DNA from: Nesterenkonia pannonica
GTDB taxonomy: Bacteria; Actinomycetota; Actinomycetes; Actinomycetales; Micrococcaceae
Assembly: GCF_019575955.1 (NCBI RefSeq)
Contig: NZ_CP080575.1
Coordinates: 2,542,001-2,606,000 of the forward strand
Length of the DNA stretch: 64,000 nt
Direction of reading: 5' to 3'
The first letter of the stretch is position 1; each line of letters begins with the position of its first letter. The translations under genes and the position numbers were made by a program. A model generated the notes under the pieces. The model saw nothing but the letters and a program-made list of their open reading frames with translations. It ran no database searches and was not told the DNA's origin. This document shows positions 1 through 63,003 of this stretch, one piece after another.

Positions 1-3000
1 GAAGCGCACCCGACCCGAAGACTCCGCGATGGGAGCGACACCCTTCGGCGAGCGTGCTTCGAAGAGCTCCTGGATACGGGGCAGACCCTGGGTGATGTCG
101 TCCGCGGAGGCGACACCGCCTGAGTGGAAGGTCCTCATGGTGAGCTGCGTTCCCGGCTCGCCGATGGACTGGGCGGCGATGATGCCGACCGCCTCGCCGA
201 CGTCGACGCGTGAGCCCGACGCCATGGACCGGCCGTAGCACGCTGCGCAGGTTCCCACGGGAGCCTCGCAGGTGAGCACGGAGCGCACCTTGATCGTCTT
301 CGTGCCTGCCTTGAACAGCTTGTCGATGAGCACATCTCCGAGCTCGGCGCTAAGCCTCAGCCAGCACCTCACCGTTCTCATCCGCCACAGTCTCGGCCAG
401 CGTGCGGGCATAGGCGGAGGTCTCCACCATGTCGTGCAGCTCGAACTCCACACCCTCAGTGTCCGTGACGTAGGTGCGGCCGGACTTGACCAGCACATCG
501 TGGGCGCCATGCCGATCGTGGCGGTGGCCCGTCGGCTGAGCGATGGGAACGGTGACGCCGCGCGAGGTTCCGCAGTCCTCGTCGCGAACGATGACATCCT
601 GCGAAACGTCGACGAGACGACGCGTCAGGTAGCCCGAGTTCGCGGTCTTCAGAGCGGTGTCCGCCAGGCCCTTACGAGCGCCGTGGGTCGCGACGAAGTA
701 CTCGAGGACGGTTAGCCCTTCGCGGTAGGACGACTTGATCGGCCGGGCGATGATCTCACCCTTAGGGTTCGTCACCAGGCCACGGATGCCGGCGATCTGA
801 CGAATCTGGTGCCAGTTTCCTCGGGCTCCGGAGGTCACGGTCCGGTTGATGTTGTTGAGCTTGTCCATACCGGCCATCATGGCGTCCTGGATCTCGGCTG
901 TTGCCTTGTTCCAGATCTCCTGAAGCTCAGTGGTGCGCTCATCCCGGTCCATCAGACCCAGGCCGAAGTCCTCTTCGACCTTCGCCACCTGCGCCTCGTA
1001 CTCCTCCATCATCGCGGCCTTGTCGAAGTCCGAGGTGATGTCAGAGATGGCCACAGTCACTCCCGAGCGCGTGGCCCAGTAGAAGCTAAGCGTCCTTGAG
1101 GTTGTCCAGGGTCTGAGCGACCTGAACGGTGGAGTAGCGCTCGGAGAGGTCGTTGACCACGTTGCCGAGCTGCTTCTTGTCGGCGACCTTGCCCTGGTAG
1201 GGGTAGTCCGCCGGGAGGAGCTCGTTGAAGATGACCTGACCGAGAGTCGTCTCGATCAGGGCAGGTGAGCCCTCGGTCCATCCTTCGGGTGCCGGAACCT
1301 CGTCAGAGGAACGAAGCCGTCCACCGCGATCCTCACCGATGCGTTCAGGTGCAGGTCGTGGAGGTCATAGGCCATCCACGCCTCGCCGACGCTGGAGAAG
1401 ACGCGACCGGCTCCGGCCTCGTCCTCACGGACAGTCGTGAGGTGATGGAGGCCGATGATCATGTCCTGCGTAGGCAGGGCCACGGGCCGTCCGTCCGAGG
1501 GCTTCAGGATGTTGTTGGAGGAGAGCATCAGGATGCGCGCCTCTGCCTGGGCCTCGGGGCCCAGCGGCAGGTGCACTGCCATCTGGTCGCCGTCGAAGTC
1601 CGCGTTGAAGGCGGTGCAGGCCAGCGGGTGCAGCTGCAGAGCCTTGCCCTCCACGAGCTGCGGCTCGAATGCCTGAATGCCGAGGCGGTGCAGAGTGGGC
1701 GCACGGTTCAGAAGGACCGGGTGCTCGGTGATGACCTCTTCGAGAACATCCCAGACCTGGGACCGCTGGCGCTCCACCATCCGCTTGGCAGACTTGATGT
1801 TCTGAGCGTGGTTGAGATCCACCAGACGCTTCATGACGAACGGCTTGAACAGCTCGAGCGCCATCTGCTTCGGCAGACCGCACTCGTGCAGCTTCAGCTG
1901 CGGGCCGACCACGATGACCGAACGGCCTGAATAGTCGACGCGCTTGCCCAGCAGGTTCTGGCGGAACCGGCCCTGCTTGCCCTTGAGCATGTCGGAGAGC
2001 GACTTGAGCGGGCGGTTGCCCGGCCCGGTGACCGGGCGGCCGCGGCGACCGTTGTCGAACAGGAGTCCACTGACTCCTGGAGCATGCGCTTCTCGTTGTT
2101 GATGATGATCTCAGGGGCCCCGAGGTCCAGCAGCCGCTTCAGGCGGTTGTTGCGGTTGATCACTCGCCGGTACAGGTCGTTGAGGTCGGAGGTCGCAAAG
2201 CGGCCGCCGTCGAGCTGAACCATGGGCCGGATCTCCGGCGGAATCACCGGCACGGCCTCGAGCACCATTCCGGTGGGCGCATTGCCGTTGACGAGGAAGG
2301 CGTTCAGGACCTTGAGGCGCTTGAGGGCGCGGGTCTTGCGCTGGCCCTTGCCGGTGGCGATGGTCTCCCGCAGGGACTCCGCCTCGGCCTCCATGTCGAA
2401 GGTCTCGAGGCGACGCCTGATGGCTTCGGCGCCCATGAATCCTTCGAAGTACTCGCCGTACTTGGCGCGCATCTCGCGGAACAGGGTCTCGTCGCCCTCC
2501 AGGTCGCCGACCTTGATGGCCTTGAAGCGGTCCCAGGTGTTCTGGATCTGATCGATCTCAGCATCTGCGCGCTTGCGCAGCTGGGCCATCTGCTTCTCTC
2601 TGCCCTCGCGCAGCTTCTTCTTCTCGGGCGCCTTGGCACCCTCGGCCTCGAGCTCGGCCAGGCCGTCCTCGAGCTCCTTGGCGATCGCAGCCAGGTCGGC
2701 GTCGCGCTGGGAGGCCAGGTGGTTGACCTCCTGCGTCACCTCTGCCTCAAGGTTCGGCAGATCGTTGTGGCGCTTGTCCTCGTCGACCGTGGTGATCATG
2801 TAGGCGGCGAAGTAGATGACCTTCTCGAGGTCCTTCGGCGCCAGGTCGAGCAGGTAGCCCAGCCGCGACGGCACTCCCTTGAAGTACCAGATGTGCGTCA
2901 CAGGTGCGGCGAGCTCGATGTGGCCCATGCGTTCGCGGCGAACCTTCGAGCGGGTGACCTCGACGCCGCAGCGTTCGCACGTGATGCCCTTGAAGCGAAC

Positions 3001-3201
3001 GCGCTTGTACTTGCCGCAGTAGCACTCCCAGTCCCTCGAGGGGCCGAAGATCTTCTCGCAGAAGAGCCCGTCCTTCTCAGGCTTCAGGGTGCGGTAGTTG
3101 ATGGTCTCCGGCTTCTTCACCTCGCCGTGGGACCAATTCAGGATCTCATCAGTGGTGGCAAGGCCGATGCGCATGGTGCCGAATGAGGATTCAGTGGACA
3201 T
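1..3201 (-). CDS. rpoC: RNA polymerase beta' subunit (3' end outside window)
   Basis: Largest catalytic subunit of RNA polymerase. The N-terminal zinc site is visible (CYCGKYK, then CERCGVEV), followed by the clamp and the magnesium-binding NADFDGDQM loop near 1590. About 1067 codons are present; the C-terminal part lies beyond position 1. ATG at 3201 gives [15 protein letters not shown], and the gene follows rpoB after 64 bases, as expected for an rpoBC operon. The frame breaks near 2065 (one C lost after VDS), near 1315, at 1085-1091 and at 349-355. The last two are GCTAAGC where GCCGGC restores DAGFYWA and EAGAEL. These are read as sequence errors because the gene is essential. Confidence 0.97.
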
Positions 3202-3265
3202 AGTCCGTATCTCTCTTTTCTGTCTGAAAGCTTCGTAAGACGTGCTGGCGATGCTGAAGGGGGCC

Positions 3266-60970: not shown

Positions 60971-61690
60971 CTATCGGGCGTCAGCGGACTTCACTGCGCG
61001 ATGAATGGCAACGATCCCGCCGGTGAGGCTTCGGTAGCGCACCTCGGACCATCCGGACGCCTCGACCATGCGTCCCAGGGCGTCCTGGTCCGGCCATGCG
61101 CGGATGGACTCCGCGAGATAGACATAGGCATCCGGGTTCGAGGAGACGGCGCGAGCGGCAGGGGAAGAGCGCGCATCAGGTACTCCTGGTAGACGGTGCG
61201 CAGGAGCCGGTTGGTGGGGTCGGAGAACTCCATGATGGCCAGCCTGCCTCCGGGCCTGGTCACACGCAGCATCTCGGCCAGCGCCTTGGAGGGTCGGCGA
61301 CGTTGCGCAGGCCGAAGCTGATCGTCACCGCGTCGAACTGCCCGTCGCCGAACGGCAGATCCATGGCGTCGCCCTGGATGAAGGTCATGTCCGGACGTCG
61401 CCTGCGGCCCACGGCCAGCATGCCTTCGGAGAAGTCGCAGGCGATGGCGTGGGCGCCCGCGTCGTGGAAGGGCTCAGCGGATGAGCCTGTGCCCGCTGCG
61501 AGGTCCAGCACGTCCTCCCCGGCTCCACGCCCAGGGCCTCGACGAGGCGACGACGCCACACCTTGGTCTGCCCCAGTGACAGGACATCGTTGGTGATGTC
61601 GTAGCGCTCGGCCACGTGGTCGAACATGCTTACCACGTCGTGCGGCTTCTTGTCCAGACTGGCTCGGGGTCCTCGGAAGGCAGGATTCAC
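60971..61690 (-). CDS. menG: Demethylmenaquinone methyltransferase
   Basis: SAM-dependent last step of menaquinone synthesis. [20 protein letters not shown] and the SAM loop [15 protein letters not shown] are visible, then FGLRNVADP and [14 protein letters not shown]. Ends [11 protein letters not shown] 61690 is the likely start. GCTTAC at 61628 converts DVAGMFDHV to DVVSMFDHV. Breaks near 61520, 61285 and 61160. Confidence 0.92.
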
Positions 61691-61734
61691 CCCAGCATTC
61701 TTGCAGATAAAGCGACGAGTAGGATTGATGGGCC

Positions 61735-63003
61735 ATGACCTTCGCGCCCCGCCCCTGACCCTGCGCACGGCGGACGTGAATCTTCCGCCGTCGGGGCTTG
61801 CAGGGCTCGCTGGCGGGCTTCGACCTTCCGCCGCCTGGATCAGGCAGGGCCACGGACTTCTGGGGCTCGGCGAGGCGCTCAGGGTCAGCGCATCGGGGCC
61901 TCGGCGCTTTCAGCAGCTGGACGCAGCGTGGCGGCAGATCACCGCCGAGCAGAGCGACCTCACCGGCTTTGTATCCGTCAGCTTCTCCGCAGCCTCCGAG
62001 TACGAGTCGCTGCTCACGGTGCCCGCCGTCCTCCTCCGAAGCGACGAGAGCGGCGCCCGTCTCCAGGTCGTCGAGGAGACCGGCAAGGACCTGCGCACCA
62101 TGCTCGCAGAGCATGGTCTGGTGCTGGAGGACGGGGCCCTCCGTCTCGCCGCACCGGAGCTCCCTCAGGTGCCGCCCGCCGCCCTGGGACCGGGCACACA
62201 GACCCCTGCCCAGTACCTCAGCGCCGTCGCCGCGGGGCTCAGCGCGATCGACTCCGGAACGGTGGAGAAGCTCGTCCTGGCTCGCGATGTGGTCGTCTCG
62301 GCCGATGCGGCCCTGCCTGCCGGGCCGCTGCTGGCACGTCTGGCTGCCGACTATCCGCAGACCTGGACCTACCGGGTGGGGCAGATGATCAGGGCCACCC
62401 CGGAGATGCTCATGCAGCTGCGCGGCGAACGGCTCTTCTCACGCGTGCTGGCAGGCACCGTGGACCACGATGCGCCTGCGGAGTCGCTCCTGACCGACCA
62501 CAAGCAGCACCGCGAGCATGACCTCGCCGTCGCCTCCCTGATGGATCAGCTCGCTCCCTGACGGAGTCGCTGCAGGCGCCGCGGATCCGCGGCTCCTTGA
62601 GCTCCCGAACGTCTACCACCTGGCCAGCGACGTGACGGGGTGCTGGCGCACCAGGACGACGGGGCGCTCCCCAGCCCGCTGGAGGTCGCAGAGGCGGCCC
62701 ACCCCACTGCGGCGGTCTGCGGCACGCCTACGGCGGCCGCGGGGCAGCTGATCGAACAGCTGGAGGGTCTGGACCGCGGGCCGTTCTCCGGGCCCGTCGG
62801 CTGGTTGGACGCCGCCGGCAACGCGGAATTCGGGATCGCTCTGCGCGGCGGAGTGCTGGAGTCGGACGGTTTAGCGGGTGCGCCTCTACGCCGGCGCGGG
62901 GATCGTGGTAAGCTCAGACCCGGAGGCGGAGCTCGCCGAGACCGAGTCCAAGCTGCGTCCGATGCTCAGCGCGCTAGGCGCTCGTCAGACGGCATCCGGG
63001 TAG
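61735..63003 (+). CDS. menF: Isochorismate synthase
   Basis: Converts chorismate to isochorismate, the first menaquinone step. MTFAPRP then, after a break near 61753, [19 protein letters not shown]. The chorismate-binding domain holds [57 protein letters not shown] and LYAGAGIV. Breaks near 62560, 62635 and 62875; GTAAGC at 62908 reads VVSSD where V-A-G-S-D is expected. Ends LGARQTASG, overlapping the menD end by 19 bases. Confidence 0.9.

Follow-up and report, generated by a model that had tools for sequence, protein, structure and literature searches.

The 64,000-base stretch of Nesterenkonia pannonica DNA analysed here, hereafter the window, covers bases 2,542,001-2,606,000 of a genome (assembly GCF_019575955.1, contig NZ_CP080575.1; referred to as G000) that consists of a single contig of 2,699,453 bases and is rated 62% complete though it is in one piece. 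For one gene of the window, the best named matches are in N. alba and other Nesterenkonia, at 61-73% identity over the best segment, which agrees with this genus. The window encodes rpoC and rpoB within its first 7000 bases and a tRNA-Tyr gene at 54065-54149 on the minus strand, and scattered through these and other genes are short strings containing TAAG. The original prediction, made from the letters of the window, was that such strings stand where the palindrome GCCGGC should be read, and that they arose by misreading of a modified base at this site. All 16 of the strings that it cited are present at their positions, the one at 55249 reading GCTAGGC, a form outside its list.

The window contains 13 copies of GCCGGC, compared with 90.4 expected from base composition or 51 expected under a Markov model (Poisson probability of 13 or fewer, 3e-24 and 2e-10, respectively). 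The rarity of the site had been recognised correctly from the start, but the count of about eight intact copies was too low: all eight are real, and those at 18247, 25169, 36180, 45067 and 45291 had been missed. The shortage extends to the whole assembly, as had been anticipated, with 686 copies of GCCGGC against 2,715 of the control hexamer CGGCCG (GCCGGC reversed), a ratio of 0.25, whereas GCCGGC outnumbered the control in 18 of 18 genomes of the same genus (ratios of 1.10-1.46, mean 1.27). Ten more genomes from the order were compared, of which four had a ratio below 1 and none had one under 0.79. When 336 kb of G000 was compared with 286 kb from relatives, GCCGGC showed the strongest depletion of any hexamer by z-score (87 copies, 545 expected). 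Two other sequences were also scarce in the 336 kb sample, namely CGACGTCG (49 copies, 124 expected from relatives) and GGTGACC (65 copies, 128 expected), which is perhaps an ordinary difference between species.

Nineteen loci from relatives were aligned to the window (in its first 10 kb one relative, G013, is counted twice through the overlap of loci L024 and L055); plasmid and phage collections gave distant matches only. At 144 aligned positions where a relative carries GCCGGC, the window has the intact site at four, compared with 14-40% for nine control hexamers. A larger comparison was made with G013, the relative with the strongest match (81.5% identity over a 213 kb alignment), in which 15 of 336 aligned GCCGGC sites were intact, the lowest survival among the 32 palindromes that had 25 or more sites, the next lowest being 8/54. 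Palindromes of the same composition were intact at 56/255 (CGGCCG) and 82/294 (CCGCGG) sites, and the near neighbours GCCGGG (98/435), GCCGGA (78/314) and GCCGGT (126/359) survived at 22-35%. Twelve control palindromes, with 1,715 sites when pooled, served for comparison: TAA or TTA stood at 61 of the 336 GCCGGC sites and at 15 of the control sites, and the length had changed at 49 of the GCCGGC sites and at 65 of the control sites. At the near neighbours TAA or TTA was infrequent (GCCGGG 14/435, GCCGGA 4/314, GCCGGT 5/359), though GCCGGG exceeded the pooled controls to some degree. The loss centres on the GCCGGC hexamer. Survival of the hexamer depends on its flanks: copies preceded by C and followed by A (or the mirror arrangement) kept about half of their density in G013 (50 and 70 as raw counts) and GGCCGGCC was found 0 times in G000 and 47 times in G013 (raw counts). 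Starting from the strings instead, 27 of the 38 TAAG-type strings in the window could be aligned, and a relative carried GCCGGC at 16 of these 27, compared with 0 of 100 aligned sites for ten control hexamers.

Three of the strings that had been put forward, GTAAGC, GCTAAGC and GCTTAAGC, are indeed replacement products of GCCGGC, being enriched relative to G013 and found where relatives carry the intact site. Their densities per 100 kb in G000 and G013 are 43.6 and 8.1, 9.6 and 1.5, and 6.6 and 0.3, respectively; those of GTAAAC are 7.9 and 2.7, and those of GCCTAAGC 3.7 and 0.9. GTAAGC alters bases 2-4 of the site and its mirror GCTTAC bases 3-5. Genome-wide, GTAAGC is found 506 times on the plus strand and 732 times on the minus strand of G000, a strand skew, while 29 other members of the genus have 12-292 copies per strand, and no 5-mer in the 336 kb sample was more enriched by z-score than TAAGC (134 versus 46, both-strand counts halved). 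GTAGGC, which had been proposed along with these, did not hold up as a general product: GCCGGC was present in the relative at 3 of 39 aligned sites, the density was 67.9 per 100 kb against 57.2 in G013, and many relatives have an identical GTAGGC at the aligned position. To judge from these alignments, GTAGGC and its mirror GCCTAC are mostly ancestral. GCAGGC and its mirror GCCTGC were also considered, as they stand at 27 of the 336 aligned sites, and were rejected because their density is not enriched (183.6 versus 176.0 per 100 kb in G013) and neighbouring hexamers show these changes too, which indicates natural divergence. Finally, GCTTAAGC was tried as a fingerprint across 396 genomes of the order. 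G000 had the highest count (165, followed by 92, 78 and 75), yet those next three genomes, and several with very small counts, had a higher ratio of GCTTAAGC to control than G000, which means that the string cannot by itself serve as a diagnostic.

Signs of error of a more general kind are found in the assembly as well. Relative to G013, the rpoC-rpoB region (window 1-7000) has 16 small indels, comprising ten deletions and six insertions; four of the insertions lie at TAAG strings (351, 1087, 5404 and 5766), six of the deletions fall in runs at least three bases long, and reading frames are broken. Beyond the window's own copy, G000 had no match longer than 119 bases to the rpoC-rpoB region. 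Runs of five identical bases were shorter than in G013 in 61 of 469 cases and longer in seven, a bias towards shortening that resembles that of a nanopore consensus, and the G013 alignment contained 1,061 gap runs in G000 against 569 in G013. The shortened homopolymers and the excess of gaps denote an error-prone consensus and could be taken to mean that GCCGGC was lost through generic sequencing error in GC-rich DNA, independent of any modification. This is very unlikely, as CGGCCG, CCGCGG and GCCGGG, with the survival given above, are far less affected, and the motif hit is the recognition site of NaeI, the family to which the genome's own system is predicted to belong.

A GCCGGC methyltransferase had been predicted to be encoded by this genome, and a NaeI endonuclease, a NaeI-linked C5 methyltransferase and a Vsr were located outside the window. 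A search for C5 methyltransferases in 30 genomes of the genus identified two loci in G000, L051 and L052. The first (L051, G000:C1:167,001-183,000) contains a NaeI-type restriction-modification system at about G000:C1:174.5-177.1 kb, in which C5 methyltransferase pieces on the plus strand (L051:7531-8783; PF00145, E 2e-53) converge on a NaeI endonuclease gene that lies in three pieces on the minus strand (L051:8745-9584; PF09126, E 8e-28, 2e-29 and 7e-9), with the Vsr gene beyond it on the plus strand (L051:9640-10080). Two of the NaeI pieces match the solved NaeI chain PDB 1ev7 (E 2.6e-20 and 6.5e-18) and have D, D and K at the residues aligned to its positions D86, D95 and K97, which we take to be the catalytic residues of NaeI. 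The L051 methyltransferase is 46-72% identical to the one beside NaeI in nine of ten compared loci (the ten best-scoring in other genomes of the order), the tenth, L094, having no L051-type methyltransferase match within its 1.5 kb flanks. Identity to 18 other C5 loci of the genus was at most 39%, except for L044 (G001:C7:29633-30218), a NaeI-linked remnant with fragments of NaeI and methyltransferase genes that is 84% identical to the L051 enzyme over 43 residues. The genome that carries this remnant, G001, has normal GCCGGC counts. As for the Vsr of L051, its closest match (84%) is found in G013 (L038), where it adjoins a C5 methyltransferase other than the L051 enzyme; this gene thus seems to move between systems. 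The second locus (L052, G000:C1:1753001-1769000, at about 5-12 kb) is a phage-like segment with SSB-like and RecT-like frames, judged by eye, and a second C5 methyltransferase, which was set aside as a candidate as it is closest to enzymes other than the NaeI-linked group.

The system in L051 resembles the type IIE NaeI family (PF09126; PDB 1ev7, 1iaw) in joining the endonuclease domain to an adjacent C5 methyltransferase, and differs from it in that its genes lie in several frames and its specificity and activity are predictions from sequence. The recognition site of NaeI is given as GCCGGC (PMC7653180), and we followed this source, since a review that prints the site as GCC|CCG (PMC4081073) shows a non-palindromic sequence that we regard as a misprint. 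Across the 396 genomes surveyed, NaeI was found above the cut-off in 15, G000 included (in four stretches), and in two of the 30 genomes of the genus, G000 and G001; despite this rarity, the gene on which the idea of a modified GCCGGC depends is present in G000. The NgoMIV endonuclease domain PF09015 matched neither G000 nor any control genome.

The survey also bears on whether the sites were truly lost in evolution, through selection against GCCGGC in a genome that carries NaeI. For the 14 other carriers (G323, which matched below the cut-off, was excluded from this comparison) the median ratio of GCCGGC to control was 0.82, against the genus mean of 1.27, so mild avoidance may exist, although genera differ. 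Their ratios range from 0.68 to 1.50 with none near 0.25, and avoidance would not account for the TAAG strings, nor for the insertions, in rpoB, rpoC and tRNA-Tyr. As the other carriers are without such a loss of GCCGGC, we reject site avoidance as the explanation and consider it highly improbable. True mutation could also have come about by deamination of 5-methylcytosine to T at GCCGGC: GTAAGC has the expected C to T change at the second base, and a C5 methyltransferase is present. The main products, however, alter three adjacent bases or the length, and a lone C to T at the third base was seen at 2 of 336 sites and its mirror at 3 of 336. A Vsr gene, moreover, lies near the methyltransferase, and the Vsr family repairs the mismatches that result from deamination of 5-methylcytosine to T; an origin of the strings by deamination is extremely unlikely.

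The analysis demonstrated the site-specific loss of GCCGGC and its replacement products, and it established that NaeI-type genes are present and to which enzymes they are related. From these findings we conclude that the TAAG strings are very probably consensus misreads of NaeI-methylated GCCGGC in a nanopore-only assembly, that is, an artefact with a biological cause. The original account of a modified and misread GCCGGC is supported by the genome-wide depletion, by the GCCGGC of relatives and by the NaeI-type methyltransferase genes. The resident NaeI-family type II system most likely methylates GCCGGC on both strands, for which a working methyltransferase would be needed, and the modification would be 5-methylcytosine, to which membership of the C5 family and the neighbouring Vsr both point. 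The assembly was most likely made by nanopore sequencing of native DNA, uncorrected by short reads. The base caller would have turned a modified site into GTAAGC in reads of one strand and into the mirror GCTTAC in those of the other, and the consensus may then have retained one form or fused both into GCTAAGC or GCTTAAGC; such merged forms alter the length, and reading frames are broken as a result.

Several observations weigh against this interpretation. An AT-richer control, CGAATG, is itself 1.6-fold denser in G000 than in G013 (40.9 versus 25.1 per 100 kb), so a density difference of that size needs no special cause. The named strings account for part of the lost GCCGGC, and the remainder is diverse. 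Eleven of the 27 aligned TAAG-type strings had no GCCGGC in any relative, which is in part expected from divergence. The NaeI and methyltransferase genes are split into frames, and either sequencing errors or real decay could be the cause. Lastly, in a study of 33 Klebsiella isolates methylation was held responsible for base ambiguities (A/G or C/T) (PMC11610573), and the three-base replacement and insertion in G000 is a stronger error than an ambiguity of that kind.

So strong a misreading could mean that the same footprint was left by some other modification of GCCGGC, such as 4-methylcytosine, phosphorothioate or an extended cytosine modification. We consider this unlikely, as PF01555 (N6/N4 methyltransferases) had no match in G000, whereas in the control search it matched 11 of 14 genomes, nine of them above the cut-off; frame-broken genes can escape such a search. 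No match to DndC (TIGR03183) was found in G000 in a search where no control scored above the cut-off and which frame-broken genes can likewise escape. It is similarly unlikely that the NaeI-linked methyltransferase, or a partner of it, puts on GCCGGC a mark of greater bulk than plain 5-methylcytosine, though such a mark would explain why three-base replacement, insertion and near-total loss of the motif are seen here as opposed to a single C/T ambiguity.

At least one relative locus carries GCCGGC, within four columns, at 11 of the 16 strings cited in the original prediction, with the best agreement at 349, 1085 and 59697, but not at 34494 (0/1 loci), 54807 (0/4) or 57774 (0/9); the strings at 16104, where there was no alignment, and 55249, whose form was not searched, fall outside this tally. 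All of the following strings are given on the plus strand. In rpoC, GCTAAGC replaces GCCGGC at 349-355 (GCCGGC in 5/8 relative loci) and, with one base more, at 1085-1091 (6/8; a +1 insertion relative to G013), G013 being counted twice in both cases. In rpoB, GCTTAAGC at 5764-5771 is two bases longer (a +2 insertion relative to G013), and one of seven loci has GCCGGC within four columns. GTAAGC stands for GCCGGC at 5950-5955 (5/7 loci) and 6727-6732 (7/7), and at 14302-14307, 17589-17594 and, in a gene named thyA in that prediction, 22685-22690 (1/1 locus each). The same support (1/1 each) was found for GCTAAGC at 32307-32313, in a gene likewise named nirB, and for the mirror form GCTTAC at 33123-33128. 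GTAGGC replaces GCCGGC at 18888-18893 (1/1) and 59697-59702 (3/5), and possibly at 1470-1475, where three of eight loci have GCCGGC, three GCGGGC and two GTGGGC. At the remaining strings GCCGGC is found in a smaller share of the loci: GCTTAAGC at 52395-52402 (1/6) and, within tRNA-Tyr, at 54100-54107 (1/6, the other five having GCCAGC); GTAAGC at 58333-58338 (2/8, with GCCGGT in four and GCCCGC in two) and 62908-62913 (1/5, with GCCGGG in two); and GCTTAC at 61628-61633 (1/4, with CGAGGC in three). GCTTAGC at 41921-41927 is doubtful, its one supporting locus (1/1) being aligned with a long gap.

Nanopore error induced by modification is a known kind of error, of which G000 is a new instance with a strong, length-changing misreading of GCCGGC. 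In a Klebsiella benchmark genome, Dcm motifs (CCWGG) contained about 70% of the nanopore consensus errors (PMC6591954). Those errors cluster where a C5 methyltransferase encoded by the same genome acts, as is predicted for the ones described here, and part of them outlast polishing; the motif in G000 differs, being GCCGGC, and three bases or the length are altered. Listeria errors caused by modification at GCAGC and GCTGG, which are strain-specific and bound to a motif as in G000, were much reduced by whole-genome amplification, and one error motif was tied to a methyltransferase-encoding system (PMC10687267). Mismatches are reported in that work, whereas in G000 length changes break genes as well. 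In Aeromonas hydrophila, GCCGGC is among the sequences listed with 5-methylcytosine (PMC8565308), a second report giving it at only 125 of 6,991 sites (PMC8112702). Among the open-licence papers listed in the literature searches, we saw no published nanopore misreading of GCCGGC. Nesterenkonia strain 118-M6 (3.68 Mb) is reported as 99.28% complete from nanopore alone (PMC13373138), so nanopore sequencing by itself need not break a genome of this genus.

Judged by the mean ratio of the genus, approximately 2,700 GCCGGC sites would be missing from G000. This species-representative genome would accordingly contain many false bases and frameshifts, including those in rpoB, rpoC and a tRNA gene, from which annotation and completeness estimates would suffer. 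With nothing more than finished sequence, the error footprint allowed a methylation specificity to be predicted, and the search that followed located matching NaeI-type genes elsewhere in the genome. A screen that combines a depleted palindrome, an enriched nonsense string and a resident methyltransferase could flag nanopore-only genomes and suggest the targets of their methyltransferases.

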